DNA of 38,242 bases from a virus, in the IMG/VR virus record IMGVR_UViG_3300031722_000084, positions 1 through 38,242 of that record. One strand, given 5' to 3'. Every line of letters starts with the position of its first letter. Within the stretch, counting starts at the first letter, position 1. Below, piece by piece: positions 148-29,293 of the stretch. The notes beneath the pieces were generated by a model. The model was not told the origin of the DNA. It made no database searches and worked only from the letters and a program-made list of their open reading frames with translations. Both the position numbers and the translations under genes were made by a program.

Positions 148-918
148 TTACCAGTTTTTGTAGATAAGTTCCCGCCGTTTTTTGCCCTTGCCAGCACCAC
201 CAATCGTATAATCAATTTCCACGGTTTCAACATTAAAGTTTCTGAATATGCGTACCATATCAGGGTGGTCATTAATGGTCAGGATTGCCCTGCCTTTCAT
301 GGTGGACATGGCCGTTGCAATCTTGTGGTATTCATCCAGCGGGAACGGCACTCCGTAACCCTCGGTTTGCCAGTATGGCGGATCCATAAAATGCAGCGTA
401 TAGTCACGGTCCCACTTGTCCAAGCAAGCTTGCCAGTCAAGGTGTTCAATCCACACTCTGGCCAGTCTTATATGCGCCTGGCTGAGATCATCCTCGAGAC
501 GCAAATAGTTGAACCGTGGAGGGGAGCTGGGAGAAGTACCGAAGGTCTGGCCGGTGACTTTGCTACCAAATGACAGCTTTTGTATATACATATAGCGAGC
601 AGCACGCTGAATGTCGGTCAGGGTATCCGGAGGGGTTTCCTTGGCCCATTCAAAAAGCTGGCGGCTGACCAGGGCGCTTTTGAACTGCCGCAGGAACTCT
701 TCGAGATGGTTTTTAACGACGCGATAAAGGTTAATGACCTCGCCATTAACATCATTCAGCACCTCGGTTTTTGCCGGTTGTCTGAGAAAGAACATGGAAC
801 CGCCGCCGGCAAACTCTTCGACGTAGCAGGTATGCGGGCAGCTGGTGATTAGCGGTATCAGTTTTTTTGCCAAGCGGCGTTTTCCACCAGGCCATGCAAG
901 TAAGGGATAATGTTTCAT
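148..918 (-). CDS. D12-class DNA N6-adenine methyltransferase (Dam-like)
   Basis: The 256-residue protein is predicted to transfer a methyl group from S-adenosylmethionine to adenine in DNA. It has the D12-class N-terminal AWPGGKRRLA motif (residues 8-17), the SAM-binding FAGGG motif (36-40) and the catalytic DPPY (179-182). A strong GGAGG lies 8 bases before the ATG at 918. It is the last gene before the phage right end, the place held in Mu by mom, which modifies phage DNA against host restriction, so an anti-restriction role is likely by position. Its recognition site cannot be read from the sequence. A strong hairpin separates it from the tail-fibre gene, so expression may be adjusted separately. 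Confidence 0.9.
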   Translation of the reverse strand: MKHYPLLAWPGGKRRLAKKLIPLITSCPHTCYVEEFAGGGSMFFLRQPAKTEVLNDVNGEVINLYRVVKNHLEEFLRQFKSALVSRQLFEWAKETPPDTLTDIQRAARYMYIQKLSFGSKVTGQTFGTSPSSPPRFNYLRLEDDLSQAHIRLARVWIEHLDWQACLDKWDRDYTLHFMDPPYWQTEGYGVPFPLDEYHKIATAMSTMKGRAILTINDHPDMVRIFRNFNVETVEIDYTIGGAGKGKKRRELIYKNW

Positions 919-1071: not shown

Positions 1072-2865
1072 TTAAAATGTATTCAACGGCATTGACTGAA
1101 ATTGGATGCTGAACACAATCGGTGCAGTACCAACATCTAGATAAACATTACCGCTAGTTTCGATTGCCACCTGACCATAAGCACCGTTAGCCGAAACAGG
1201 GAATACCTGCCGGGAGGTTGGACGAAATCCAGCCGGTAAAAATAATATAGATGATCCAGCAGTGCCTCCAGTGCAACTGCCAGTTAAATGTACAATCTCG
1301 TTTTTGTCCTTATAAATATGTACCGGCTCGACATCGGCGGGCGTTGTAGAGTTTACCCAGCTGCCCTGGAATGAGGCTGGGAAACTTAAAAATGAATCAT
1401 CAACAATATATTCGAAAACAGTTCCCGTCGCATTATTCAGGTATTTATCGCGGGCAACCATATTATTAATAACTCTATTTTCAGTCCCTGATTGAGTGTT
1501 AATGCCTATGGTGTAGTTACCAAGTGCCGAATTACTCGATATCAAGTTGTTACTGCTATTCACAAACCAGAATGCATTTGGCAATGCCGTAGCGTGAGAG
1601 TTTTTGACGGTGTTATGATCCATAGTAACATCGGTCATATTGGCACCAAAAAGCCCAACTGTCCCGCTAGTCGGTGCAGCCGCTGAGGCGGTGATTTTAG
1701 CGATATTGTGGTGGAATGAACCGCCCGCATAGCCATCTATATCAAATGCAATTTTTTCATCGGTAGTAATGTTGTCGGACATAATTGAGTCGAGGACATT
1801 TGTTGCTCTAATAAACCGAACATTACGACCGCCGGTATTGTGATGCACCATCGAATACCAGAAATTATCAAGCTTCATCCCGCCATAAAGATTTGATTCG
1901 GACGGCAGTCCGGCATTGTCGGCATAAACGTTCGATCCGATATCAGCATGATAAAAATATGCCATATCCAGTGCCTTACCATTTTCGCAGATCCAATTAT
2001 TACGGACGCGAGGAACATCCAGACCCCACGCAAATATCCCGGTACCCAGATTTGAAATGGACATGCCTTCAATCACCAGGTCGTCAACCGCAGTACCATA
2101 GATAGTGCCGCTGGAATTGGCGTTATAGACCTTGATGCCGACAGCGGCCCCTGTTGTTGATGGACCGTAGATGGAAAAGTCCCGGTAATGGATGCTGCTA
2201 TAGTAATGGATCGCAGGAGATGCTGATTCACCAATAGCAATAATGGTTTGAAATGCCGGTTCTTCAGTTGTTTGAATTACTCCGGTACCAAGCATACCAC
2301 CGGCATCTACAATGGTACTGCGGGTGCCCTTGTTAAATCCGGCTATGGTTATAAACCGACGACGGACATTTACGGAACCGGATTTGCGGTACTGGCTATT
2401 CAAAATCACCCTGCCGCCGTAGGCTGGAGCAGCATCAACAGCAGATTGTAGAGCAGCATTATTGACCGCTTCATAACCTGCAACGTTACCACCGACAGCG
2501 CCCCACCATTCCGGAGGGATATCCGGATTAGATTCAAATGTGACGGTACCCGACCCCACCTTTTCCAGGACGTGATATAAACCTGCTTTAAATGGTCCTT
2601 TAATAATCAGATTACCACTGTAACGGATTCTGCCGCCTTTAATCACTTCTACCGGACGATCTGCAGGAATGGTCAAGTTCCCGCAATTCATCGTTGACGT
2701 TACTACCATAGGCTTTCCGGATGTTGCCGGACTACGCTTGGCTGTAGACAAATTCGTAAATGAAGCAATATCAATGCCCCATGGCCCACTGGAATTGTTG
2801 ATTGCAGCAAACGTCGGTAAAACGGTAAACATCAGCAGTATTATCGTTAAAAATATGTTTTTCAT
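1072..2865 (-). CDS. Secreted-type right-handed beta-helix protein at the tail-fibre position
   Basis: The 597-residue protein starts at MKNIFLT, because GGAGG lies 8 bases before that ATG; an upstream ATG at 2880 overlaps the ribosome-binding site itself. Residues 1-20 form a clear Sec signal peptide (K, hydrophobic run, LPTFA cleavage region). The rest has short repeated beta-rich turns with NXX, SSN and GNY motifs typical of pectate-lyase/parallel beta-helix proteins, and an IPPEWWGAVG motif common at the start of such phage fibre or depolymerase domains. It follows the Mu gp48-like gene and a small fibre-like gene, where Mu encodes tail fibres. A signal peptide is unexpected for a virion fibre, so it may instead be exported by the lysogen or infected cell. 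Function unproven. Confidence 0.7.
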   Translation of the reverse strand: MKNIFLTIILLMFTVLPTFAAINNSSGPWGIDIASFTNLSTAKRSPATSGKPMVVTSTMNCGNLTIPADRPVEVIKGGRIRYSGNLIIKGPFKAGLYHVLEKVGSGTVTFESNPDIPPEWWGAVGGNVAGYEAVNNAALQSAVDAAPAYGGRVILNSQYRKSGSVNVRRRFITIAGFNKGTRSTIVDAGGMLGTGVIQTTEEPAFQTIIAIGESASPAIHYYSSIHYRDFSIYGPSTTGAAVGIKVYNANSSGTIYGTAVDDLVIEGMSISNLGTGIFAWGLDVPRVRNNWICENGKALDMAYFYHADIGSNVYADNAGLPSESNLYGGMKLDNFWYSMVHHNTGGRNVRFIRATNVLDSIMSDNITTDEKIAFDIDGYAGGSFHHNIAKITASAAAPTSGTVGLFGANMTDVTMDHNTVKNSHATALPNAFWFVNSSNNLISSNSALGNYTIGINTQSGTENRVINNMVARDKYLNNATGTVFEYIVDDSFLSFPASFQGSWVNSTTPADVEPVHIYKDKNEIVHLTGSCTGGTAGSSILFLPAGFRPTSRQVFPVSANGAYGQVAIETSGNVYLDVGTAPIVFSIQFQSMPLNTF

Positions 2866-2889
2866 CAGTATTACCTCCATAAATATTGT

Positions 2890-3288
2890 TTAAAAAGTTT
2901 GCCAGTTAGAGCCGTCTTGAGCCACTTCGAAGCGATCACCAGGGTCAAGATCAATATAGGCAGCACCATCAATAAGTTTGCCGTCGGTAGCATCCAGACG
3001 GGCAACACCCTGACCGATATTTTTGCCCTTGTAGCGTTTTTGAGACCCTACCGCACTAAAGACCGGGAGATGATAGGGGACTATTGTCCCGTCAGCAGGG
3101 TTGGCAAACAGTACGCCATTGGTTTCTGCCAGCGTTATTTCGACTGCTGAAGTGACTACATCCCCACCCAGCGCAATAACTTCTTCCTGAATGGCGGTCA
3201 GCCAGGCGGCGGTAACTTTGGTGCCCTTTTCACCCGCTGACGGGTTTCCTTCGTGAAACTGCCCATCGACAGTGCCTATTCGTTCCAT
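2890..3288 (-). CDS. Small tail-fibre/collar-like protein
   Basis: This 132-residue protein opens with a VDGQFHEGNPSAGEKGT motif followed by VTAAWLTAIQEEV, a pattern I associate with the N-terminal part of tail-fibre proteins in Mu-like and P2-like phages. It lies between the gp48-like baseplate gene and the beta-helix gene. It has no signal peptide or membrane segment. It probably belongs to the tail tip or fibre attachment. AGGAGG lies just upstream of the start at 3288. Confidence 0.6.
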   Translation of the reverse strand: MERIGTVDGQFHEGNPSAGEKGTKVTAAWLTAIQEEVIALGGDVVTSAVEITLAETNGVLFANPADGTIVPYHLPVFSAVGSQKRYKGKNIGQGVARLDATDGKLIDGAAYIDLDPGDRFEVAQDGSNWQTF

Positions 3289-7895: not shown

Positions 7896-9748
7896 TACCA
7901 GGCCCCCGTATTCATGAGGGCATCAAAGAAACTGCCATTTTTGCCGCCAATATTGGCGCTGGTGGACATGTCGTTGCTGCGAGCAAAGACGCGACCGCCG
8001 GAGTCGATCTGCAGGTCGATCTTAATTTCGTTTTTCTGAGAGCCCTTCGCCGGTTCCGGGTGGAACATGTCATAAACTTGCTCCCCTGCCCATCCTGTAC
8101 CCTTGTATTTCCCTCCGGATGCCCAGCCGCTTATTCCGCCGAGGGCATGATTAAGACCGGTACCGACACCATACCCCGCGCCACCGGCAAGTAGGAGTGG
8201 AAGAATTTCAGCAGATGCAAGGCCCATAGAAGAACCGGCCAGCACTCCGAACTTACGAGCCAGCCATCCGGCCGCTTTCTTGCCTCCGCCTGCAGCAGCA
8301 CCTCCGCCGACCGCTCCGCCTATAGCATCGGCAACAACGGAACCGCCCAGATTAGCGGGCCAGTTGGTGATAAAGACCGGAGTGACACCGGCGGCAGCTT
8401 GGAGCGCCTTGCCTTCAGCCACTCCTATTGCAGTAGATGCCCCGCCTTTCAGAAGCCCACCAATGCCGCGAGCGCCATATTTACCAGCCAGCAGCCCGCC
8501 AACTACAAGGCCAGCCCCGGCAATGGGGAGCAGTTTGGATGGATTCTTTTCCGCAAATTTGCCGATGGCGTCGGTGGCATCATTCGTTTTAGCAACGATC
8601 TTGGTGAGGAAACCCAGCCAGGGATCAAAGATCGCGGCGGCGGTTGTCTGTGCCGTGCCTGTCAGTGATTTGAGATTGGCGGAAAAACCCTCCATGCGCG
8701 TGTTGAGCTTAGTCTGCATGTCGGCGGCCTTGCCGATGTTTTCGCCGACCTCTTCCCACGATCCAGCGCCTTCATGGATCAGGGCAAAAGCAGCACGGCC
8801 ACCCTGTTCACCGAAGATTTTCTCCATGACAAAAAGTTTCTTTTGATCGGTCATACCGGACAACGATTTGCGCAGCTCGGGAATGATGGTGTTGAACGAC
8901 TTGAGCGTCCCTTTTTTGTCGAAGAATTCGAGCTTCTGTTTTCCAGTGCGCCCAAGCTCCTGATTCAAGGCGGCCATGACCTTACGGGCCATGTGAGAGG
9001 TGCCGACCATCCGGATCAGGAAGTCATTGAGTGAGGTACCGGCCATCGAGCCTCTCATACCCTGCTGGCTCATTGCACCCATGGCGCGAAGGATATCCTG
9101 GGCGGGGATTTTCATGTTGGCGGCGGTACCGGCAACGTACTTCATCCCCTCGACCAGGTCGGGGATCTTGGCGACCGATGCCTGGTCGACCTTCTGGATA
9201 TAGTTTGCCAGGTCGCCGTACTGATCGCCCTTGATGTTAAACGGCGACGCCATAGCGACCAGACCTTCGCCCATTGCCGACGGTGCTTCCTTGGAGATGG
9301 TGGCAAGCGCTGCCGCTGCCCATGCTGCGCCACTTTTTGCTGCAACATCCTCCATTTTAAGACCGGCCTTGAGCAGCACGTTCTCGATACCTACCACTTC
9401 TTGAGCGCCGAACGGCATCTGTTTCTGGATGACGCTGGCGGTCTGGCGGACACGGTCCAGCTGCTTGTTGAGTACCCCGGCGTCGCCGCCAGCCTCCTGG
9501 AGATTCATCTTTACATCGAGCACGGCCTCCTGCAGACCGGTTGCGGACTGGAACCCCTTCAGAGCACTCAACGAAACGCCGAGCCCTGCCAAAACTCCGC
9601 CTAGTGACCGGGCGGACTGGCGGATGGAGGCCATCTCACGCTTGGCGATGCTGCCGAAACGTTGAAAACCCTGTTCGGAATCCTTCAGCTCCCGCTTTAA
9701 ACCGGTGGAACGAGCAAGTAGCTCTATAAAGAGTTTCATATCAGCCAT
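7895..9748 (-). CDS. Tail tape measure protein (Mu gp42)
   Basis: The 617-residue tape measure protein sets tail length. The N-terminal half is helical with the TP901-type core (ALATISKEAPSAMGEGLVAM and the following PAQDILRAMGAMSQQGMRGS). The C-terminal half holds glycine/alanine-rich hydrophobic segments (LLPIAGAGLVVGGLLAGKYG and another near residue 510) that could cross the membrane during ejection. It is the first gene of the third late operon. The inferred late -10 ends 9 bases before the ATG and there is no Shine-Dalgarno, so the mRNA may be nearly leaderless. A second in-frame ATG at 9739 (MKLFIEL) is an alternative start. Confidence 0.92.
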   Translation of the reverse strand: MADMKLFIELLARSTGLKRELKDSEQGFQRFGSIAKREMASIRQSARSLGGVLAGLGVSLSALKGFQSATGLQEAVLDVKMNLQEAGGDAGVLNKQLDRVRQTASVIQKQMPFGAQEVVGIENVLLKAGLKMEDVAAKSGAAWAAAALATISKEAPSAMGEGLVAMASPFNIKGDQYGDLANYIQKVDQASVAKIPDLVEGMKYVAGTAANMKIPAQDILRAMGAMSQQGMRGSMAGTSLNDFLIRMVGTSHMARKVMAALNQELGRTGKQKLEFFDKKGTLKSFNTIIPELRKSLSGMTDQKKLFVMEKIFGEQGGRAAFALIHEGAGSWEEVGENIGKAADMQTKLNTRMEGFSANLKSLTGTAQTTAAAIFDPWLGFLTKIVAKTNDATDAIGKFAEKNPSKLLPIAGAGLVVGGLLAGKYGARGIGGLLKGGASTAIGVAEGKALQAAAGVTPVFITNWPANLGGSVVADAIGGAVGGGAAAGGGKKAAGWLARKFGVLAGSSMGLASAEILPLLLAGGAGYGVGTGLNHALGGISGWASGGKYKGTGWAGEQVYDMFHPEPAKGSQKNEIKIDLQIDSGGRVFARSNDMSTSANIGGKNGSFFDALMNTGAW

Positions 9749-9756
9749 GATGGGGG

Positions 9757-9802
9757 ATAGTACGTGGAGGGGAAGGGGATTTCTATTTGAAGGACTTCAA
9801 AT
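9757..9802 (-). promoter_or_regulatory. Late promoter of the tail operon (activator dyad plus -10)
   Basis: The perfect dyad ATTTGAAG-TC-CTTCAAAT (9802-9785) is followed after exactly 21 bases by GTACTAT (9763-9757), a good -10 element (TACTAT). There is no -35 box at the usual place, and the dyad centre falls near -44, the usual position of a class II activator site. The same arrangement recurs before the other two late operons. Binding by the Mor/C-family activator (27552-27926) is inferred from Mu biology. Confidence 0.75.
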
Positions 9803-9805
9803 AAA

Positions 9806-9836
9806 AAAGCCCCGATCCGGTAAGGAAAGGGGCTTT
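9806..9836 (-). terminator. Intrinsic terminator before the tail operon
   Basis: AAAGCCCC / GGGGCTTT arms (9829-9836 and 9806-9813) are followed on the minus strand by a TTTTTT run. It ends transcripts of the head-tail operon just upstream of the third late promoter, and would also stop RNA from the promoter at 9853-9881. Confidence 0.88.
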
Positions 9837-9852
9837 GAGGTGGTATTTGCAC

Positions 9853-9881
9853 TGTATGCCAAAATGGCGGCGTTATGTCAA
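9853..9881 (-). promoter_or_regulatory. Sigma70-type promoter firing into the terminator
   Basis: TTGACA (9881-9876), a 17-bp spacer and CATACA (9858-9853) with an extended TGG just upstream. The -35 box overlaps the stop codon of the chaperone frameshift product. Transcription would start near 9846 and end near 9803, giving an RNA of about 45 nt. The -10 is weak alone, but the TTGACATA and spacing recur in two other modules. Confidence 0.55.
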
Positions 9882-10349
9882 GCTTTCTTCTTTCGTACCT
9901 TCTGAACTTGCGGTTTTGGGTCTACTATCTCCTGGTAGTTGAGCAGCAGGCTGTTCCCCTCGGAGAGCGGCATGTCAAGCGCCTCCGTCCAGGGTACCCC
10001 CAGTTTGATCAGCGCCAGCAGCTGTTTTCTGAGCGGCTTGTTGGCCGCTTCGAAACTCCTCCCTCCGCTGGTCCAGGTCGAACATGGCATAGCCGAGGGT
10101 GTCACCATCGGCACCGTCAAGATCCAGGACCATCTCGGGCGTGACATTGTCGATACCGGCAATCTTGAGACGCTTGGAGATAATGGCGGCATCGTAGTAA
10201 GCCGTATCGGAGAGCAGCTTCTTATCGATGGCCGGATCATTGGCCAGTTCCAGGGTATTGCGGAAGGTGCGCTCGTGCAGAATGTATTCTCGACAGGCGA
10301 TGCCCTTGTCGTTGATTATCCCATTCGGGAAGGTGCCGGTATGAACCAT
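9878..10349 (-). CDS. Tail assembly chaperone, frameshifted long form
   Basis: Frame-0 gene 9975-10349 overlaps a second open frame that continues to 9878. The long form keeps the first 117 or so residues, then shifts and adds VPWTEALDMPLSEGNSLLLN and a lysine-rich tail ending KKKA, about 156 residues in all. The best slip point is the G5 run on the minus strand (10001-9997): in frame 0 the codons are GGG GGT, and either +1 slippage on GGG or -2 slippage on GGT gives the same next codon, GTA. The second frame has no start codon or ribosome-binding site of its own near the junction. Two-frame chaperones immediately ahead of the tape measure gene are conserved in tailed phages, and Mu is reported to use a -2 shift. 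Confidence 0.75.
9975..10349 (-). CDS. Tail assembly chaperone, short form (Mu gp41-like)
   Basis: The 124-residue protein begins MVHTGTFPNG with GGAGG upstream of the ATG at 10349. It lies between the tail tube and tape measure genes, the fixed place of the G-type tail chaperone that binds the tape measure before tube polymerisation. The C-terminal end (AADQT-type Gly/Ala/Thr-rich residues) lies in the overlap with the frameshift extension, so it is probably low-complexity by constraint from the other frame. Confidence 0.8.
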   Translation of the reverse strand: MVHTGTFPNGIINDKGIACREYILHERTFRNTLELANDPAIDKKLLSDTAYYDAAIISKRLKIAGIDNVTPEMVLDLDGADGDTLGYAMFDLDQRREEFRSGQQAAQKTAAGADQTGGTLDGGA

Positions 10350-10352
10350 GGC

Positions 10353-10712
10353 TTATTCCTCCACCCTGGTACCGGCGACGAACTCAATATTCTTGGTAAC
10401 TTCCTTGTCGCCATCGAACTTGGCCTCGCCGATGCTGAGGCACTGCACTTCACCGAAGCTGATCCGCTTGCCGTTTTCGTAGTCGATGGTAACGGTGCCG
10501 TCTTCAATGCTTTCGAAGTCGCGTTCGGGCTTATCGGCCGGTACCACGTATTCGAGGCTGAAATTGTGGCGGGCTTTGACCTTGAGCGTGCCGGTACTGT
10601 TCATCAGGTTGACGGTCTTTTTGAAGACGCGCTCTTTTTCGGTGAAGGCGTTGAAGTCCTCTTCAAGTTCACCGTTAATCTCAAGACTGACTTTGCTGAT
10701 GTATGCTTCCAT
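10353..10712 (-). CDS. Tail tube protein (Mu gp40-like)
   Basis: The 119-residue protein is of the size and place of Mu gp40 (gene M, 118 residues), directly after the sheath and before the chaperone. It is beta-rich with SKVSLEINGELEEDFNAF at the start, as in contractile-tail tube subunits. AGGAGG precedes the ATG at 10712. Confidence 0.85.
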   Translation of the reverse strand: MEAYISKVSLEINGELEEDFNAFTEKERVFKKTVNLMNSTGTLKVKARHNFSLEYVVPADKPERDFESIEDGTVTIDYENGKRISFGEVQCLSIGEAKFDGDKEVTKNIEFVAGTRVEE

Positions 10713-10733
10713 TCAAGCCTCCTTTAAGGCGGA

Positions 10734-12155
10734 TTAAAGAATCAGATCGATGCGACCGGCGATGACGTGCAGACCGTTAACCACGTCGGCCGGGATGCGA
10801 ATGTTGAGGCGGTTTGGATCCTGCTCATCGCGCTCGATGATGACGCCGGAACGGTTGAGTGCGACGTTTTCAAGGATCTCCAGGCGCTCCAGGCGATTGA
10901 GGATGTCGAGCACCTCTGTCCGGACACGCGCCGGGGTTTTGGTGGAGAGCTTGGCCCTGGGGAAACGGAGCAGCAGACGTTCACGAACGGAGCGGCGGGT
11001 GTAATCAAGAGTATCGATGGTCGTGACATCGAGCAGGCTGATGTCGGGCACTCCAGCGATGTTCTCGACGTAGGTGGTGATCATCCTGACAATCTGCACC
11101 TGTTGGCCGGGGCCGACCTGCAGCGGAGTGACACCGTTGGCCAGGGAGCTTTCCTGTTCGGCCCTGGTCAGGCGCTGAGGCTCGGACGGTGCGGCTATGC
11201 CTTTGAGCGGCAGGTAGTTAAGCGGCCGGGCCGGATCTGATTCGGAAGCGCGAACGGCGGCGAAGGCGGCGGCAATCTCAAAACTCGGCGAGCGGGATCC
11301 GCGCAGCAGGGCGACGCAGACACGTCCGGAGTTGAGGTCGGTCGTGAGGGTGATGACGGTGGCCAAGGCGATGTCGACGGCGGCATAACCGACGCCGGGG
11401 CGTTGTTCGATGGGGCCGGATACGGCGTCCAGGTGATCGCGCAGGGCGGCCAGGCTGGTGGCGTCGTTGTAGGGAGTGATGATCAGGGAGTATTGGCTGG
11501 CGTACACCTTGTCCAGGGCGTCCTGAATATCAGGGTCGATGGTACCGGTGGCCATGGTGACAACGGCCACGGTGGTGGCGATGTTAGCGGTGATGCTGGC
11601 TTCCAGATCGATCTGGTTGGCGACCAGGCCTTTGTTTTTGGCGGCGAGCGTAACAACACCCAAGGCGGCGGTAGCGGTGACCGGCAGGTCGGAGAGGTTG
11701 TTGATGGCGGCTGCCAGGGCGGCAGCAATTACCGTCACGGTGTCTCCGGAAGCGATGGCGATCTCGACCTTGTCGTTGCCGATGTAAAGAGTTGCGACGC
11801 CGGATCCGGTCGGCACGGTGGCAAAGGTTACGGTACCGGCAGCTGCTGCCCCAGCACCATCATCCAGGGCACAGACGGTCAGGTCCATGTAAGGGTTGGC
11901 ACGGAGCGCGGCCATTACCATGCGGTGTGCCAGCGAGCCCCGGCCGAAATAAGTGGCGGCATCGGCAGTGCTGTAGACGCGGGTCGGAACCAGGGCGGCC
12001 ACGGAACCGGCGGCAATGCGCTGGGCAATGATCAGGGTCGGCTGCACATTGGCCGGCAGCGAGTTGACCGCGAGGGTCGTGTTGAATTCAAAGTACGCAC
12101 CCGGCTTGCGGATCGTGCTGGGGATGCTGTCAAATGATATATTCTCTGAGCCCAT
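10734..12155 (-). CDS. Contractile tail sheath protein (Mu gp39, L)
   Basis: The 473-residue sheath protein polymerises round the tube and contracts on infection. Recognised by the N-terminal IRKPGAYFEFNTTLAVNSLP, typical of Mu-type sheaths, and the C-terminal region RSVRERLLLRFPRAKLSTK followed by RLNIRIPADVVNGLHVIAGR. It starts at the stop of the DUF2635 gene. Confidence 0.92.
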   Translation of the reverse strand: MGSENISFDSIPSTIRKPGAYFEFNTTLAVNSLPANVQPTLIIAQRIAAGSVAALVPTRVYSTADAATYFGRGSLAHRMVMAALRANPYMDLTVCALDDGAGAAAAGTVTFATVPTGSGVATLYIGNDKVEIAIASGDTVTVIAAALAAAINNLSDLPVTATAALGVVTLAAKNKGLVANQIDLEASITANIATTVAVVTMATGTIDPDIQDALDKVYASQYSLIITPYNDATSLAALRDHLDAVSGPIEQRPGVGYAAVDIALATVITLTTDLNSGRVCVALLRGSRSPSFEIAAAFAAVRASESDPARPLNYLPLKGIAAPSEPQRLTRAEQESSLANGVTPLQVGPGQQVQIVRMITTYVENIAGVPDISLLDVTTIDTLDYTRRSVRERLLLRFPRAKLSTKTPARVRTEVLDILNRLERLEILENVALNRSGVIIERDEQDPNRLNIRIPADVVNGLHVIAGRIDLIL

Positions 12156-17585: not shown

Positions 17586-19850
17586 TTATTTATTCTCCAG
17601 CGCGCCCGTCTTAGGATTCATCCACTGCTTGCCGGGGTTATAGTCCCAGCCGGGATCTATTCCCCTGGGGATGTCACGCACTTCGCCGGTGGCGGGGTTG
17701 ACCCATTCGAAGGTGCCGTCATTCGGGGCGGTGCCAACCTTCTTGTCCAGACGGGTCAGGTCGCGGTTTGATAGGGCTGTAACGCGGCATTTGCAGCCCC
17801 AGCCGTTAGGGGTGTAGTGAGACTCCCACCAGGGATCATCGGCGGGCAATACGGTGCCGTGCCAGGACAAGTGTAGCGGCCGGGGGTGAACGCTGTCGCC
17901 ATGCTGATACATCCAGTTGGGGCGGTACTTCAATACGTCCGGGTCGGTCATCTGGGCATAGCGGCCAGCCTGGTATGACGTGCGGATGTTGGTATCGTAA
18001 ATGACACGGGAACGCCAGCCACGAGTACCGTTATAGCTCCAGCCGTATTTGTTGACGATGGTATCGAACTCGCCCAGGAACGTCTGGTAGGTGGTACCCT
18101 CGGCAATGGCTGTATCGATGGCCAGACGGAAGTCGGCCAGCATATCGTCACGCATGACACCGGCGACGGTGAAGGCGTGGTCATGCTCGCTGGCGTAGAT
18201 ATCCGACCAGGTGGCGGATTGCATGCCGAGCTTCTGTCGGAAGAAGTTGATCGCCTCTTCGAATGGGAGGCTGATCGGTTGCGCCTGTTCGGCGAAGTCG
18301 AGACTGGACATAATGTCGTCACGACCGTTCAGGTTGGCGAGGATCTGGGCATCGGCCAGGGTGATGGCAAACGGGTCAACGTCAAATAAGCCTTCGCGAT
18401 AGTTAGCCATCTGAGTTGCTGCCGTTTCCAGTGATCCGGCTGCGGTGATGATATGGTTGATTGTTTTTGCCAGGCTGCTGCCGTCTTCCGCATTGAGTGC
18501 CTTATCAACAATCAGGTCGATCTGATCCGGCTGCAGCTCGCCTTCTGCAAACGACGAACAATGCGGACACGTATGTTCAGAAAATGCAGTCGTAACTGTT
18601 GGTGGAACAGCTGGGGCTTTTACTGCCAGATCACTATCCTCAAGATTGTACGTGCGTTTGTAATAGTCAACGGTAAAGACCAGACCGCTGGCGGCCAGTG
18701 GCCCGGTCAGTTTGTCATCACGTTCGGCCTGCTTGGTATCAACATCCTCTTCCTCCCAAAGGCCGAACTGCGGTAAATCTTCAAGAGGTGCCTGCCAATT
18801 GAGGCTGTTGATTATGGCGATCAAGTGGTTGAAGGCGGCGTTGACGATGCGGCGGTCGCCATCAATGATATCCTTGGCGGCTTCGGTGGCGGCCGCTTCG
18901 CCCCCCAGTTTACCGCTGACCGATTCACCGGCCCCGGCATGGCCGAGAATGACGGTGGAGATGGCGCTGTTGGCTTCGGCGATGATACCCCTGAACAGAT
19001 CGGATGATGCACCCTTGCTGTCATCGGAGAGCAGTTCGACGCTGCTGTCATCGTAGATAACGGCTATAGCATCCTGCACCATGGCTTGGAGCTTGTCGGC
19101 CAGATCATTCATCTCGGCCGAGTTGGCACCGCGCCGGATCTTGCCGATCGCAAACGGCTGTCCGTACTTTTCGGCAAAGGTAACCCAAAAACGCCAGCCA
19201 CCTTTTTTGAAGGTTACCGGCCAGAAACAGCGGGACATGAGTGCCTGACCGTAGGGGTTTGCATAGGATGCTCCGGAGGTGGGGCATAAAAACGAGTTTG
19301 GCGGCGGCACTTCACCATAGAGCGGCTCTTTTCTGCTCTTAAAGCGCAGGGCGTTGTCAGTGTCAAACAGGAACCATTCAGCCGGTTTGCCAACAACATC
19401 GCGAGGCAGTATCAGTCCGCTGGTTGTTTTGTTCCAGAGCATTTCCATCGGCTGATAACCGTAGGTAACGGAGTCGAGTATTTCAGTAATGATGCGGTTG
19501 ATATCGAGACCGTTAAAGAGGCTTTCAATGGTGGCATGGATGGCCTTGTTCTGACGGGTGCGGGCGGTTGTACCGCGTCCATGGTCGAGATCCCATTGCA
19601 ATTGCAGTACACCAGCTTTACGGCGGCCAAGGTTACCGCCGACACGGTCGTCAATGAGCATATCGCGATATACGGTAATGTTCTGCCCCTGCTTTTTTAG
19701 GATTGGGTCAGGGTTGGGCAGGAACATATTGAGACCAAAGAAGTCATATGCGGTTTTGCGCGTGGCGATCTCTTCAGTCATGCTCCGCTTCGGTTCGGCG
19801 AAACTGGCGGTAACGTTATTGGCAACCTTCATTTTCTGGCGTTTGCGCAT
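17586..19850 (-). CDS. Portal-MuF fusion (Mu gp29 + gp30)
   Basis: The 754-residue protein joins two Mu proteins that are normally separate. Residues 1-450 match the DUF935 portal (ILDSVTYGYQPMEMLWNK, PYGQALMSRCFWPVTFKKGG, WRFWVTFAEKYGQPFAIGK), the ring through which DNA enters the head. The C-terminal part holds the phage Mu F head-morphogenesis domain (RVIYDTNIRTSYQAGRYAQM, HPRPLHLSWHGTVLPADDPW, PNGWGCKCRVTAL). I chose the ATG at 19850, 2 bases past the terminase TGA with GAGGG upstream; the longer reading uses a TTG inside the terminase gene. No stop or ribosome-binding site separates the parts. Confidence 0.9.
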   Translation of the reverse strand: MRKRQKMKVANNVTASFAEPKRSMTEEIATRKTAYDFFGLNMFLPNPDPILKKQGQNITVYRDMLIDDRVGGNLGRRKAGVLQLQWDLDHGRGTTARTRQNKAIHATIESLFNGLDINRIITEILDSVTYGYQPMEMLWNKTTSGLILPRDVVGKPAEWFLFDTDNALRFKSRKEPLYGEVPPPNSFLCPTSGASYANPYGQALMSRCFWPVTFKKGGWRFWVTFAEKYGQPFAIGKIRRGANSAEMNDLADKLQAMVQDAIAVIYDDSSVELLSDDSKGASSDLFRGIIAEANSAISTVILGHAGAGESVSGKLGGEAAATEAAKDIIDGDRRIVNAAFNHLIAIINSLNWQAPLEDLPQFGLWEEEDVDTKQAERDDKLTGPLAASGLVFTVDYYKRTYNLEDSDLAVKAPAVPPTVTTAFSEHTCPHCSSFAEGELQPDQIDLIVDKALNAEDGSSLAKTINHIITAAGSLETAATQMANYREGLFDVDPFAITLADAQILANLNGRDDIMSSLDFAEQAQPISLPFEEAINFFRQKLGMQSATWSDIYASEHDHAFTVAGVMRDDMLADFRLAIDTAIAEGTTYQTFLGEFDTIVNKYGWSYNGTRGWRSRVIYDTNIRTSYQAGRYAQMTDPDVLKYRPNWMYQHGDSVHPRPLHLSWHGTVLPADDPWWESHYTPNGWGCKCRVTALSNRDLTRLDKKVGTAPNDGTFEWVNPATGEVRDIPRGIDPGWDYNPGKQWMNPKTGALENK

Positions 19851-19851
19851 A

Positions 19852-21450
19852 TCAGTAGCCCTCAAGGGTTTTGTTGATTCGTTTAAACTTACGGGAGACG
19901 ATATCTACGGGACCGCTTTCCTGCCTGGTGGCAAAATAGCCGAGGGCCATTGCTATGGCGGCATCACCGTGACGCTTGAACTCGGCGTCTTTGGTGTCCT
20001 GAGTGCGCAGTCCGGGCAGCTTGATGATGCCGTCGATCATCTCCAGGGCGCGCAGGTCATTAAGGACATCGGCGTCCCTGGGGATATCGAATATCTGATC
20101 CTCAAATCCCTGCTGGAAGGGGGTCATGTTTTCCCGGTACCAGTTATCGCTGAGCATAACTTCCATGATGCGCTGACGGCCGTACTTGTCGGCGGTAAAC
20201 TCGGCCAGCGTATAGCCGTTGCCGGTGGCGTCCATGGCACCGTTACGGAAGTTTGGCAGGTGATCAATGATGTGCCAGAGGATCTGTGACTGGTGGCGCG
20301 TCGGGACGTTTTTCATTTCCAAAAAGAACGGTACCCGGCGGCGCAGATCCTGCTCGATGGTCATGGGACCAAAGACGGCAAAATCGCCGTAGCGGGCGTA
20401 GTCGGAACCGAAACTGTGCGCCCTGGCTTTATCCAGGGTATCAAGGGCCGGATTGACGTTGATGCGGATCCAGTCAGCAATCCAGGAGTCGCGATAGGGT
20501 ATGTCTTTCGGGACGAAGTCACTCTCCAGCGCCAGGCGCAGCATCGGCCGGGTCTCTTTCATGCACTGCTCGATCAGCACGCCGGGGATCGCCACTCCGG
20601 AACCTTCGCGGGGGATGGCGTCCAGCTCTTCCTTCTTGGCGGCGACGTTGCTGCCGTAGCCCTTGATAATGCCAGCGTACCAGCGCTCTTTACCTTCGGC
20701 GGTTGGTTCCCACCCCTTGACCATGCAGACCCGCTCATAGAGGCCGTTGGCTACGGCATCGTCAAAGGTGCAGTGAAACACCTTGAAACCGTTCAGCCCT
20801 GCGCGGCTGTCTCGTATCAGTTGGTTAAAGGCGTTCTTCATGCCGTTGTGGGTGGAGATGATGCGGATCTTGCCGCCCCAGATCAGGAGCGCCAGGCAAG
20901 CATCTATCACGGCCTGGACGTTCTTGTGGAAGGCCGCTTCGTCGATGTTGACGATCCCCTGGAGGCCGCGAATGTTGGCTGGGTTGGAGGAAAGCGCCAC
21001 GATCTGGAAGCCGGAGGCGAAGCGGATGCGGTAGCTGGTGATCTGCTTGCTGGAGCCATCTTCCTGCTGATCTTCGAAGAGGAATACTTCGATGCCGTTC
21101 CAGCCGTCGGCCATGGCCATTGCCATGATCTTGGCCATCTTGGCGCAGTAGCCGATGAACTCCAGACCCTTTTCCTTGGTATCGCCGACGTAGTAGATGT
21201 TGTCGCCGCCAGCCCTGCGGGAAGTGGAGGCGGTGATGGAGTCATCCAGGGCAGTAGCATAGGTAATACCGGTGCGGCGGCCCTTCTCGGCGATGTTCAG
21301 ATCGCACTCGTGGAGCTGCTTGATCCACTGGCGCTGATGCAACATGAGCACGCCATCGGCCAGCGGGTTAGTTTCGTCAGGAATCTCGCGGACGCTGGCG
21401 GGCAGCTCGGCCGGATCGAGGATTCGTATGACGTCGCCGGGTAAACTCAC
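19852..21450 (-). CDS. Terminase large subunit (Mu gp28)
   Basis: The 532-residue packaging motor ATPase/nuclease has a Mu-type atypical Walker A at residues 55-64 (EKGRRTGITY), Walker B VNIDEA (167-172), and a C-terminal nuclease part beginning around SFGSDYARYGDFAVFG. It uses ATP to pump DNA into the prohead. It overlaps the small terminase gene by 4 bases. Confidence 0.92.
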   Translation of the reverse strand: MSLPGDVIRILDPAELPASVREIPDETNPLADGVLMLHQRQWIKQLHECDLNIAEKGRRTGITYATALDDSITASTSRRAGGDNIYYVGDTKEKGLEFIGYCAKMAKIMAMAMADGWNGIEVFLFEDQQEDGSSKQITSYRIRFASGFQIVALSSNPANIRGLQGIVNIDEAAFHKNVQAVIDACLALLIWGGKIRIISTHNGMKNAFNQLIRDSRAGLNGFKVFHCTFDDAVANGLYERVCMVKGWEPTAEGKERWYAGIIKGYGSNVAAKKEELDAIPREGSGVAIPGVLIEQCMKETRPMLRLALESDFVPKDIPYRDSWIADWIRINVNPALDTLDKARAHSFGSDYARYGDFAVFGPMTIEQDLRRRVPFFLEMKNVPTRHQSQILWHIIDHLPNFRNGAMDATGNGYTLAEFTADKYGRQRIMEVMLSDNWYRENMTPFQQGFEDQIFDIPRDADVLNDLRALEMIDGIIKLPGLRTQDTKDAEFKRHGDAAIAMALGYFATRQESGPVDIVSRKFKRINKTLEGY

Positions 21451-24586: not shown

Positions 24587-24622
24587 CAAAGCCCCAAACC
24601 GTGGGAACGGAGAGGGGCTTTG
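24587..24622 (-). terminator. Intrinsic terminator after the DGR
   Basis: CAAAGCCCC / GGGGCTTTG arms (24614-24622, 24587-24595) are followed by TTGTTAT on the minus strand. It separates the early/middle operon with the retroelement from the lysis operon. The T-run is weaker than in the other two modules, so some read-through is likely. Confidence 0.8.
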
Positions 24623-24636
24623 TGGTGATTTATCGC

Positions 24637-24665
24637 CTTATATCGCGATGGGGTTACTATGTCAA
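24637..24665 (-). promoter_or_regulatory. Sigma70-type promoter firing into the terminator
   Basis: TTGACA (24665-24660), 17-bp spacer, TATAAG (24642-24637), the best of the three such promoters. The -35 overlaps the reverse transcriptase stop codon (TTGACATAG). The predicted RNA from about 24630 to 24584 is about 47 nt. Confidence 0.65.
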
Positions 24666-25802
24666 ACAAATAACCCGCCGACTTTTTCTAAACACCTTCC
24701 GGAATTTACCATCGACACAATGTCCCTTACGAAGCGCAATCCGTGCCAGACGCGCCCTGGCATAGTGGCTATGATCCGATTGCCGGAGCAGGCCGAGATA
24801 GCTGTTTGCGCTCATCATCAGATCTTCGCCGTTCTTGCTTGAAAGCGCTGTTACCGCGTTTTCAAAGGTCGTTCTTCGAAGCACCCTCCGCCAGGGTTTA
24901 ATGATCTGCCCGACAAAATCTACACCTCGCTCAATCGGCTGGAGGATCGTTTTACGCGGGTTTAAAGCCTGCCCGAGCCGATCCTTGACAAAGCCGTCGA
25001 TCTCCACTCTAGCACGGTTCAGCCATTCTGGAGATTCGTGTAGCAGCACCATATCATCCACATAGCGGATGTAGTGGCGGGCACCGATTTGATGTTTTAC
25101 ATGCTGGTCAACCGCATTCAGGTAAACATTGGCAAAGAACTGGCTGCTCAGGTTGCCGATCGGAAGACCCCTGTAAGCGGGTTGGTTAAACAGGCTCTTG
25201 TAGGGCGGAATCAGGTTTAACAGCTCGGGAGTTCCCTTGATGCGGACATTCTCCCTTGGATCATGGAAAAGGATGGTGTCGGCCAGCCACATGACCCACG
25301 GCTCGGTTATCTTTCGTGCCAACAGTTCCCGGAGGATATTCTTATCAATACTGACAAAGAAGTTGGCAAGATCCAGCTTCAGGTAATAGGCGCGTTTCGA
25401 CCAGTTCTGCGTTACGCTCCTGATCTTATGCTCCAGGCGTTTCGCGCCGTACAGTGTGCCCCGGCCTGGTATACAGGCGCAGCTGTCCGCGATGAATGAG
25501 TTGTGAAACCTTTCCGCGATCCGGTTGTAGAGCAGGTGGTGGACTATCCTATCCCGGAAATCGGCTGCCCATACCTCGCGGGGTCTCGGTCTGGTCACGA
25601 CAAAGCAGATTGACATGCCGGGTTGATACGAGCCATCCAGCAATTCCCGGTACAGAGCCATGATGTTGCGCTCCAGGTTTGTTTCAAACTTTAATGCATT
25701 GGTGGTATTGCGTTTGCGCTTGCGGCAGTCATAGTAAGCGCACAGCAGTTCATCCACCGTCAAATCGGCATCGCTATGATCTGCGAACCGCCCGAACTCC
25801 AT
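24657..25802 (-). CDS. DGR reverse transcriptase
   Basis: The 381-residue reverse transcriptase copies the TR RNA into cDNA with adenine-directed errors. Motifs in order: DFRDRIVHHLLYNRI (motif 1-2), KLDLANFF (catalytic Asp144), GLPIGNLSSQFF (212-223, where the SQ is typical of DGR enzymes in place of the QG of intron RTs), and YVDD (247-250). There is no maturase or endonuclease domain, as usual for DGRs. The open frame continues upstream to 26015, but conserved RT sequence begins near residue 15, so ATG 25802 is preferred; that codon lies inside the TR. No good ribosome-binding site is visible, so translation may be low. Confidence 0.95.
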   Translation of the reverse strand: MEFGRFADHSDADLTVDELLCAYYDCRKRKRNTTNALKFETNLERNIMALYRELLDGSYQPGMSICFVVTRPRPREVWAADFRDRIVHHLLYNRIAERFHNSFIADSCACIPGRGTLYGAKRLEHKIRSVTQNWSKRAYYLKLDLANFFVSIDKNILRELLARKITEPWVMWLADTILFHDPRENVRIKGTPELLNLIPPYKSLFNQPAYRGLPIGNLSSQFFANVYLNAVDQHVKHQIGARHYIRYVDDMVLLHESPEWLNRARVEIDGFVKDRLGQALNPRKTILQPIERGVDFVGQIIKPWRRVLRRTTFENAVTALSSKNGEDLMMSANSYLGLLRQSDHSHYARARLARIALRKGHCVDGKFRKVFRKSRRVICLT

Positions 25803-25880
25803 AATTGTTGTTCTTATTGTTGTTGTTCTGGTTGCCATTGTTGAAATCCACGATCCATGCGTTGTTGGAGTTAGGGGCGT
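25779..25880 (-). repeat. DGR template repeat (TR)
   Basis: This 102-bp repeat matches the 3' ends of both variable genes. On the minus strand it is loaded with AAC/AAT codons (13 in VR frame), the codon choice that gives widest amino acid change and no stops under A-to-N mutation. Identity to VR1 and VR2 begins at ACGCCCC and ends at TTCGCAGAT. Every mismatch lies at a TR adenine. Its last 24 bases also encode the first 8 residues of the reverse transcriptase in another frame. Confidence 0.96.
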
Positions 25881-26055
25881 TATGTCGTGATGCTCACGTC
25901 GCACGGCAGAAGGTTTACAACCGATCCACCATGAAACTGCGCCGCGACCTTGCGGGACCAATGCCCGCCGGTTTCGCTGTTGGTGCTTTACCGTGGGGCC
26001 ATTCCCCAGGGACACGACCAGATTAATTTTCGCACTGGCATAACCGCCGTAACGG
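25881..26055 (-). ncRNA. Avd-TR spacer, probable 5' part of the DGR template RNA
   Basis: 175 bases without a supported gene lie between the avd stop and the TR. In characterised DGRs the template RNA extends beyond the TR on both sides and these flanks are needed for cDNA priming, so this segment is probably its 5' portion. The reverse transcriptase frame stays open through most of it, but the translated peptide does not look like RT sequence. Confidence 0.45.
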
Positions 26056-26406
26056 CTATGCAGCAGGCGACGATGCCTTGAGCCAACCAGAAGACTGCCT
26101 GCCGATCTGGTCGGTTAATTCAATGGTCTGGGCAAACTGTCCCGTGCTGATCAGCCGCATGTCCTTGGACAGCCTGAGCAGCAAGGTCACCACCTGGAGA
26201 TGTTCCTGCAATATCTCCAGGTGAGGCCGCTTGTCACGGGAACAGTTCGCCCGGTAAATCAGCACGGTCAGCTCAACACATTCATCGCGGATCTTGCCGC
26301 CAAGCGACTGCTTGAAATCACGCGGCATATCCTTGGTGATGCGGGTGGCCACCTGCAGAAGATCATAGGTGACGCGATAGATGGGAAGTGTTGAAGCCAG
26401 TGCCAT
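26056..26406 (-). CDS. avd: Avd-like DGR accessory protein (four-helix bundle)
   Basis: The 116-residue basic helical protein shows the Avd/S23 pattern: PIYRVTYDLLQVATRITKDM, then PRDFKQSLGGKIRDE, LIYRANCSRDKRP, and a final IGRQSSGWLKA. Avd forms a pentameric barrel that binds the reverse transcriptase and template RNA. GGAG lies 8 bases before the ATG at 26406. Order variable genes-avd-TR-RT matches the Bordetella phage BPP-1 cassette. Confidence 0.92.
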   Translation of the reverse strand: MALASTLPIYRVTYDLLQVATRITKDMPRDFKQSLGGKIRDECVELTVLIYRANCSRDKRPHLEILQEHLQVVTLLLRLSKDMRLISTGQFAQTIELTDQIGRQSSGWLKASSPAA

Positions 26407-26438
26407 GGTTGTTGCTCCAGTTTAAAATAGATAAATTG

Positions 26439-26963
26439 CTAAATTTTTAATCTGCGAACCGCCCGAACTCCATAAAAGTAGTACTTAATGAAGTCGCCCT
26501 GGAAGCCACTGAAGAAATCCACGACCCATGCGTTGCCGGAGTAAGGGGCGTACTCAGTACTGGACCAGTACCAGTTGGTATTGAATGCCTCTGTAGAGCC
26601 TTTACGGAATAATTCAGGGGTATTCTTGCGGTTAGGGCCGAGCGCCATCCAGATACGCATGAGCTCGTCACGAGAGGGCAGATACCAGTCGTCATGTCCA
26701 GCGATCCGGAGCGACCGGCAGAAGTGAGCAGCCGGATGGTTTGTATCATTGATGAGTTCGCTGTTGGCAAAGCCGTCATCGTCGCTGATAGTACCGTCGG
26801 CAGTGCCACGGTCTTTCAATTTGTACTCCAGCTCCATCTTCTCGCCTTCAGCCTTTGGAGCCACTATCAGAGCGAAACGTTCGCCGTTTACTACAATCTC
26901 GCCGCCGAAAAATCCGCCGCCGAATTCAGACCCAAGAGCCGGTACAGTTACTTTCTTTGCCAT
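26439..26963 (-). CDS. DGR variable protein 1 (DUF1566, C-type-lectin-like)
   Basis: The 174-residue target protein has an N-terminal GGGFFGGEIVVNGERFALIV segment, the DUF1566 core HDDWYLPSRDELMRIW, then NWYWSSTEYAP and the diversified end closing in YGVRAVRRLKI. DUF1566/FGE-like C-type-lectin folds hold many substitutions at the ligand face. Residues about 138-172 are the VR. There is no signal peptide. GGAG precedes the ATG. It is a close paralogue of the gene upstream, so the pair arose by tandem duplication. Adhesion or receptor binding is likely by family; the partner is unknown. Confidence 0.93.
   Translation of the reverse strand: MAKKVTVPALGSEFGGGFFGGEIVVNGERFALIVAPKAEGEKMELEYKLKDRGTADGTISDDDGFANSELINDTNHPAAHFCRSLRIAGHDDWYLPSRDELMRIWMALGPNRKNTPELFRKGSTEAFNTNWYWSSTEYAPYSGNAWVVDFFSGFQGDFIKYYFYGVRAVRRLKI
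26450..26551 (-). repeat. Variable repeat VR1
   Basis: This 102-bp repeat aligns with the TR without gaps. It has 19 substitutions, all at TR adenines, including ATC to GTC in the otherwise constant AWIVD segment. It encodes YSGNAWVVDFFSGFQGDFIK and the constant YGVRAVRR end. The 20 bp just downstream of VR1 match those after VR2 with one difference. Confidence 0.95.
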
Positions 26964-26991
26964 GTCGATATCTCCTTAAAGTGATAAATTG

Positions 26992-27507
26992 TTAAATTTT
27001 TAATCTGCGAACCGCCCGAACTCCATAATTGCCGTCCTTATTGAGGCCGTCCTGGTAGCCAAGGTTGAAATCCACGATCCATGCGTTGAAGGAGTTAGGG
27101 GCGTATTCGGTGCTGGACCAGTACCACTCCTCATCAAATGCTTCGGCGTTGCCACTCTTGAACAGCTCCGGAGTCGATTTCCTTGTCGGGCCGAGATTCC
27201 GGCACAGCATGGCCAGCTCATCCCGCGATGGCAGATACCAGTCATCAAAGCCACCGATTCGCAGTTGACGGCAGAACTGCGCAGCTGGATGATTTTCGTC
27301 GTTGATACGGTTGCTGTTGGCAAAACCGTCATCGTCGCTATCGGTACCGTCAGAAGTCCTGCGATCTTCTAGCTTGTACTCGATCTCCATTTTCTCGCCT
27401 TCCGCTTTCGGGGCTACTACCAGGGCAAAGCGTTCGCCTCCAACGGTCATCTCTCCGGCGAAGAAGCCGCCACCAAGTGGGGTGCCTACGGTTGCAATCG
27501 GTTTCAT
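26992..27507 (-). CDS. DGR variable protein 2 (DUF1566, C-type-lectin-like)
   Basis: The 171-residue paralogue of variable protein 1 has the same layout: GGGFFAGEMTVGGERFALVV, FDDWYLPSRDELAMLCRNLG, EWYWSSTEYAP, and a diversified end (residues about 135-169) closing YGVRAVRRLKI. It is first in the retroelement cassette, 44 bases after the Mor-family gene, with AAAGGAG upstream. The two paralogues differ throughout, so both have been kept by selection rather than being a recent copy. Confidence 0.93.
   Translation of the reverse strand: MKPIATVGTPLGGGFFAGEMTVGGERFALVVAPKAEGEKMEIEYKLEDRRTSDGTDSDDDGFANSNRINDENHPAAQFCRQLRIGGFDDWYLPSRDELAMLCRNLGPTRKSTPELFKSGNAEAFDEEWYWSSTEYAPNSFNAWIVDFNLGYQDGLNKDGNYGVRAVRRLKI
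27003..27104 (-). repeat. Variable repeat VR2
   Basis: This 102-bp repeat aligns with the TR without gaps. It has 13 substitutions, all at TR adenines. It encodes NSFNAWIVDFNLGYQDGLNK before the constant end. It is closer to the TR than VR1, so it may be the less often or less recently retargeted gene. Confidence 0.95.
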
Positions 27508-29041: not shown

Positions 29042-29293
29042 CTATATCCCTCCAAACAGCGGCATCTGCGCATGTTCGTTCAAAGTGTAGAGGTAGACGC
29101 CGCGCTGCCCTTTGACCGGGCTGCAGTCCACCGTGAATCCATTGCTGCGCAGTTCGGCGATGATGCTGTTGACGGCGCAGACTTCGCAGCCCTTGACAAT
29201 CTCCATGGTGGTAGCGCTGCCCTTGCGGCGAAGAAAGTCCCGCACCTTCTGGAGGCGCGGGCTGTCGTCTATTTTTGCGGCGTGCATGGTCAT
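29042..29293 (-). CDS. Small winged-helix-like early protein
   Basis: The 83-residue protein has RLQKVRDFLRRKGSATTMEI followed by IIAELRSNGFTVDCS, consistent with a helix-turn-helix plus wing as in small phage regulators. GGAGG precedes a double ATG (29293 and 29287). Specific function is unknown. Confidence 0.6.
   Translation of the reverse strand: MTMHAAKIDDSPRLQKVRDFLRRKGSATTMEIVKGCEVCAVNSIIAELRSNGFTVDCSPVKGQRGVYLYTLNEHAQMPLFGGI

Follow-up and report, generated by a model that had tools for sequence, protein, structure and literature searches.

A functional-looking diversity-generating retroelement with apparently reorganised cis elements in a Mu-like phage

The IMG/VR virus record IMGVR_UViG_3300031722_000084 is a contig of 38,242 bases that was analysed over its whole length and is called the window below. 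On its minus strand, at 24591-27507, it carries a complete diversity-generating retroelement (DGR) with two target genes, avd, a template repeat (TR) and an intact reverse transcriptase (RT), and the transcription order is target gene 1, target gene 2, avd, TR and RT frame; the region was re-read and re-translated for this work, and all features named here lie on that strand. Target gene 1 (26992-27507) and target gene 2 (26439-26963) are open reading frames (ORFs) for DUF1566/Lcl_C proteins of 171 and 174 aa (Pfam Lcl_C, 7.7e-15 and 7.7e-13), the first with a C-type-lectin fold, and each ends at its 3' side in a variable repeat (VR), VR1 at 27003-27104 and VR2 at 26450-26551. The TR (25779-25880) contains 37 adenines, and its 3' end is the initiation-of-mutagenic-homing block (IMH*), GGAGTTCGGGCGGTTCGCAG. 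A repeat search recovered TR, VR1 and VR2 independently, and no further copy was found in the whole 38,242-base record.

The avd gene (accessory variability determinant, 26056-26406) encodes 116 aa and matches bAvd (2.5e-14) and phrog_3206, the Avd protein of DGRs (9.5e-32); against NCBIfam DivGenRetAVD it scores 61.5 bits, under the cut-off of 80. The RT (24657-25838) is 393 aa long when counted from an ATG at 25838 inside the TR; a further in-frame ATG lies at 25802, and the frame is open upstream to 26015. Its YVDD and LSSQFFAN (SQ) motifs are intact, it matches phrog_1423 at 2e-113, and its best sequence match in the PDB is the reverse transcriptase 8ub7 (6.8e-39). A terminator-like hairpin with a T-rich tail just past the RT gene (24591-24608) is a weak match to the consensus, and the number of such hairpins found was not above that in shuffles. 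Near-repeats that differ at TR adenines, a DGR-type RT, an Avd and C-type-lectin targets are thus all present, and the object is a DGR.

A sequence-only reading had described a complete two-target DGR with open frames, VRs free of stop codons and intact YVDD and SQ motifs. Re-translation bears this out, every part lies at or near the positions it gave, and RT, Avd and both targets match curated families beside a TR and two VRs. Its statement that all parts are present holds for targets, VRs, avd, TR and RT; by the standards of Bordetella phage BPP-1, however, the cassette lacks the spacer between TR and RT and the hairpin after the VR, and has other elements at those sites. It had overlooked an RT-15 structured RNA (25878-26072), the overlap of the TR with the RT frame and the motifs that follow the VRs.

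In an ungapped comparison over 102 nt, all 32 mismatches between the TR and the VRs (13 in VR1 and 19 in VR2) fall at TR adenines, which make up 37 of the 102 TR bases, and the chance of this is about (37/102)^32, less than 1e-13. The changes are A to T (17), A to G (13) and A to C (2). Family-wide, over 64 dereplicated loci, 986 of 999 TR/VR mismatches (98.7%) are at TR adenines. Closely related records show the process as well. In an alignment of 8,525 bases, loci L006 and L008 of two metagenomes show 14 differences, all of them in one VR and all at TR adenines, while the second VR, the TR and all remaining sequence are identical; L026 and L031 likewise differ at 14 VR positions, 14 of 14 at TR adenines, and nowhere else; and between L115 and L116 all 14 VR differences are at TR adenines, with 17 more outside. 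Judged from these paired sequences, the sister cassettes retrohome. The recount therefore agrees with the sequence-only reading, which took the adenine-only mismatches as direct evidence of past mutagenic retrohoming, and that interpretation is supported: the wider alignment keeps the adenine specificity, and the search it proposed for the same cassette with different VRs has turned up near-identical relatives, L006/L008 and L026/L031, that differ solely in a VR and at TR adenines.

Most of the detailed knowledge of the DGR mechanism comes from BPP-1, where a spacer RNA 3' of the TR primes the complementary DNA (cDNA) and a DNA hairpin marks the target. The BPP-1 cassette (mtd, avd, TR, brt) resembles that of the window in having the VR at the 3' end of the target, followed by avd, TR and RT on one strand, in its adenine-specific mismatches and in the C-type-lectin fold of the target; its RT is 31% identical to the window RT. 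Unlike the window, BPP-1 has an avd that abuts the TR, a structured spacer of about 144 nt (Rfam Phage_DGR) between TR and RT, a GC hairpin with a GAAA loop after the VR and a single target, whereas in the window RT-15 lies between avd and TR, there is no spacer, the TR is inside the RT frame, an ATT motif takes the place of the hairpin and there are two targets. Both a structured TR-RT spacer and a GC-rich post-VR hairpin with a GRNA loop were looked for in the window and neither was found. Because the defining features of a DGR are there and these two BPP-1 features are not, we class the cassette as a DGR and not as a BPP-1-type DGR.

For efficient homing BPP-1 requires a GC hairpin formed by about 24 bp after the VR, a feature said to be conserved among phage DGRs (PMC3240598). 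In the 40-60 nt past the VR ends of the window no GC hairpin was found, only 5-bp A/T stems. Across the clade of related RTs to which the window belongs, stems of at least 7 bp with at least three G-C pairs occur at 11 of 106 VR ends; the same scan is positive in 6 of 11 control DGRs (BPP-1, F2, VP585, ARM81mr, YPCBV-1 and ZX4290). A post-VR hairpin was accordingly rejected as a general feature of the clade, family scores being hardly above those of shuffles.

What follows the VRs instead is a 27-nt phased motif with the consensus ATTnnnnATTTARTCATTYAnCnATT (VR ends in L005 to L133), in which four ATT triplets are spaced 7-8 nt apart and conservation stops at nt 27. Both window VRs carry it directly 3', VR1 at 26978-27004 with 12 of 13 positions and VR2 at 26425-26451 with 13 of 13. 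After dereplication of VR ends by the sequence beyond the motif (n=91), at least 10 of 13 positions match in 84% of ends, as against 0.5% of shuffles and 0% of the sequences after TRs. The position of the motif and its absence after the TR would fit a tag that separates target from template. The strongest competing explanation is that it serves expression of the target gene, by its stop codon context, as 3' untranslated region (UTR) or by setting the distance to the ribosome-binding site that follows, and has nothing to do with retrohoming. The motif does include the target stop codon and precedes the next gene; yet the seven positions past the stop codon are conserved by themselves (84% of dereplicated ends, but 0.4% of shuffles, keep at least 6 of the 7), conservation breaks off abruptly at nt 27, the motif is missing after the TR, and it occupies the place of the hairpin that BPP-1 requires, within +24 (PMC3240598). 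We regard an expression element as unlikely, if a serious contender. In ARM81mr, ZX4290, Lagaffe and F2 the post-VR bases also resemble short T-rich direct repeats, with a spacing of 7-10 nt; the motif test itself covered the RT-15 clade only.

The second departure from BPP-1 concerns the reading frame of the RT. An alignment-based scan added 80 loci, and 102 loci with a detected TR were analysed. In 101 of them the RT frame passes through the TR in one phase with no spacer between TR and RT, and nine in-phase lengths (11, 14, 17, 20, 23, 26, 29, 35 and 38 nt) separate the end of the IMH from a conserved RT codon; that eight length changes should all keep the phase by chance has a probability of about (1/3)^8, if each length were free. 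In L021, the one locus out of phase, an ATG of its own follows the TR. Of the 58 loci with an ATG in the TR, 23 have a stop codon in the 170 nt upstream of the IMH; of the 44 without one, none does. Five loci of the first set have a stop just upstream followed by an ATG in the TR at most nine bases later, and several have no ATG between the TR and the conserved RT domain but one in the TR right after a stop. The core of RT-15 is in phase with the RT in 43 of the 44 loci that lack a TR ATG, against 31 of the 58 others (dereplicated Fisher p 0.003), and RT-15 offers an in-frame ATG in 40 of those 44. From these patterns of phase, stops and ATGs, RT translation appears to start in the TR or in RT-15. 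For the window, the ATG at 25838 inside the TR would be the best supported start and 25802 the second choice. Because the RT frame runs through the TR, changes in the TR also affect the part of the RT near its N terminus, and one RNA would be both template and RT message.

Overlap of TR and RT is not unique to this clade, since the annotated RT also covers the TR in Vibrio phage VP585, Pseudoalteromonas phage ACA1 and Aeromonas phage phiARM81mr (L135, L138 and L139). There the annotated RT starts at or next to the avd stop and covers the whole TR, in a frame that differs from that of the RT-15 clade; perhaps this is an independent fusion.

The third departure is the RNA on the other side of the template. 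In the window a covariance-model match to RT-15 (Rfam RF03018; 135.5 bits, gathering score 82, E 5e-32) begins at the very end of avd and reaches just into the TR, which its 3' end abuts. RT-15 stands 5' of the TR in the window and in 21 of the 22 other clade loci scanned that have a detected TR (7 first, then 14 of 15), the sole exception being the out-of-phase L021. An alignment of 58 sequences shows compensatory changes at 36 of 56 predicted pairs. Control DGRs carry their curated RNA 3' of the TR, Phage_DGR in BPP-1 and RT-14 in BalMu-1; in the window RT-15 alone was found, and no Rfam match lies 3' of the TR. A hidden RNA element in the 5' coding region of the RT was considered and rejected, as there is no excess of synonymous-site conservation at that end. 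The 3' spacer of BPP-1 recruits RT together with Avd and also primes the synthesis of cDNA (PMC12875486). With no room for a 3' spacer and no synonymous excess, it is simplest to suppose that RT-15 takes over this function from its position 5' of the TR, as a putative binding and priming element for RT and Avd. We also noted a near-invariant six-base complementarity between the RT-15 core (UCUGGU) and the middle of the TR (ACCAGA), in the window and at columns 66-71 and 293-298 of alignment A4. RNAalifold proposed that the two pair, a candidate that we did not adopt: covariation is lacking, the match is disrupted in L049, L111 and L121, and on the TR side the sequence is held in place by the target protein as well. 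A search of 395 bacterial genomes of one phylum for RT-15 returned one already known genome and one sub-threshold match, so that the element is not common in the chromosomes of that phylum.

These observations bear on whether the cassette might after all be an ordinary BPP-1-type DGR, in which the RT starts after the TR, the layout is neutral and a functional 3' region is hidden in the RT gene. The order of parts varies among DGRs, and one survey judged the arrangement irrelevant (PMC3521204); non-ATG codons exist near the RT anchor, and the RT of Bacteroides phage F2 starts 38 nt past its TR. A neutral layout, however, sits badly with a phase held in 101 of 102 loci across nine linker lengths and with those loci whose only ATG before the conserved RT domain lies in the TR right after a stop, and a hidden 3' region sits badly with the lack of synonymous-site constraint and of an Rfam match 3' of the TR. 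We consider this explanation improbable.

The sequence-only reading had further held that the system looks active. Intact frames and motifs and the diversification of sister cassettes speak for this; present activity of the window copy itself is something we infer from them, since the window and L004, which are 99.99% identical over 10,629 bases with a single difference at 29244, have identical VRs. That the DGR diversified formerly and has decayed or gone dormant in the window phage would suit two records whose VRs agree although they differ by one base in 10.6 kb, but it is the least probable of the alternatives, because the frames are open, the catalytic motifs intact and the VRs without stops, neither VR has a single non-adenine substitution whereas decay would add such, close clade relatives diversify, and both records may simply come from the same population.

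Taken as a whole, the locus is best explained as a functional-looking DGR of a distinct clade with reorganised cis elements, a reading to which we give a probability of roughly 0.8. Under it, one minus-strand transcript would hold both targets, avd, the RT-15 fold, the TR and the RT as a single transcription unit. RT and Avd would bind this transcript through the RT-15 domain 5' of the template, and the TR would be copied into a cDNA that receives random bases wherever the template has adenine. Guided by the common 3' block (IMH) and probably also by the phased ATT motif that follows the VRs and not the TR, this cDNA would then replace either VR, the motif thus acting as a target mark. In this way two small proteins of C-type-lectin fold could be diversified from one template. 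A further step would be to regard the RT-15 clade as a mechanistically separate class of DGR, with a permuted RNA whose structured 5' domain binds RT/Avd and primes cDNA in place of the 3' spacer, with a template inside the RT coding sequence such that a single RNA is contested between use as template and synthesis of RT, and with a phased ATT motif that marks targets instead of a hairpin or cruciform. This we put forward tentatively, as a proposal that may well fail.

Several points weigh against the reorganised DGR. The candidate pairing of RT-15 with the TR has no support from covariation and fails in three loci, which leaves no account of how RT-15 would reach the 3' end of the TR. No Shine-Dalgarno sequence is evident before the start codon in the TR, and in L021, as in the sister cassette of Bacteroides phage F2, the RT begins after the TR, so that not every cassette depends on translating the TR. 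As the 102 loci are relatives of one another, their nine linker lengths amount to far fewer than 102 independent events. Since the motif lies in the 3' UTR and overlaps the stop codon of the target, it may act in RNA or in expression, and the sole two records of the window phage, the window and L004, show no VR variation.

Pseudomonas phages Cruim01 and LPPA56, Burkholderia phage Magia and Shewanella phage QDWS have an RT of the same clade (59-62% identity), with the RT frame running through the TR, mismatches at adenines and, where scanned (Cruim01 and LPPA56), RT-15 5' of the TR. Unlike the window they are other phage types without a Mu-like cassette context, and their targets are about 30% identical where matched. 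Hankyphage (PMC6199706) and BalMu-1 share with the window a DGR in a Mu-like transposable phage, but the RT of BalMu-1 is distant (34%), and in that phage RT-14 lies 3' of the TR and nearly 190 nt of spacer precede the RT. Structural group 3 of DiGReF, described in 2012, is alike in that the TR overlaps the end of the annotated RT ORF; the part of that survey available to us differs from the present work in containing no analysis of reading frame, RNA structure or target motif, and it takes the arrangement to be irrelevant to mechanism (PMC3521204). DGRs in general, the RT-15 RNA as an Rfam entry and TR/RT overlap as an annotation class are therefore already known, as are two-target DGRs, about 13% of cassettes (PMC10743442), DUF1566 targets (PMC6642488) and DGRs in Mu-like phages (PMC6199706). 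In a literature search of partial coverage we found no in-frame TR/RT overlap beyond the DiGReF class and no account of RT-15 as a 5' domain of DGR RNA, of the TR/RT phase relation or of the post-VR motif, and an earlier description is possible.

The sequence-only reading placed the cassette in a Mu-like prophage. The setting in a temperate Mu-like phage is confirmed, as the contig that surrounds the cassette encodes a MuA-type transposase, MuB, Mor, GemA, Mu-type head genes and a contractile tail, together with a CI-like repressor; no host flank that would point to an integrated prophage was found in the 38.2 kb. The DGR lies between Mor and the endolysin, with the tail fibre genes far off at 1072-3288. 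Locus L035 has the same backbone (MuB 91%, GemA 89% and Mor 72% identical) and no DGR in the corresponding slot (9350-12015), which holds an apparent DNA adenine methylase gene, called by reading its translation against a similar gene at window 148-918 and not by a family search, and small ORFs. The same cassette (RT 81-84%, Avd 83-93%) is present in other phage backgrounds. Because the slot is filled otherwise in L035 and the cassette occurs on other backbones, it appears to be an exchangeable module in an accessory slot. A cassette with an 83% identical RT and two targets lies in a Geobacteraceae genome bin (L010, a Geobacteraceae metagenome-assembled genome, JAMXLF010000071.1), a hint at the host group. 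Elsewhere on the minus strand of the window, at 17586-19865, a 759-aa protein matches a portal over residues 13-532 and a minor head protein over 499-753, an apparent fusion of the Mu gp29 and gp30 types.

The AlphaFold model of target 1 has a mean predicted local distance difference test (pLDDT) score of 80, its sole significant PDB match is the C-terminal domain of Legionella Lcl (E 2.8e-5), and the VR forms its last strands and loops. A binding role of the targets may be supposed. Both are small (about 170 aa; 26439-27507), without an evident signal peptide or virion-attachment domain and distant from the tail genes, and in several clade phages (among the DGRs of Cruim01, Magia, QDWS and Haboob) the neighbours are early or integration genes. 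Given this location and these neighbours, a role in the tail is not a given.

For the family as a whole, more than 100 phage DGRs that seemingly lack both spacer and hairpin, with sister records that change only at the VR positions of TR adenines, form a natural test of which cis elements are needed. They offer a likely role for the RT-15 RNA of Rfam, and the post-VR motif is a candidate target tag for directed diversification. They also raise the question of how one RNA may serve as both the template for mutagenesis and the message for the RT.

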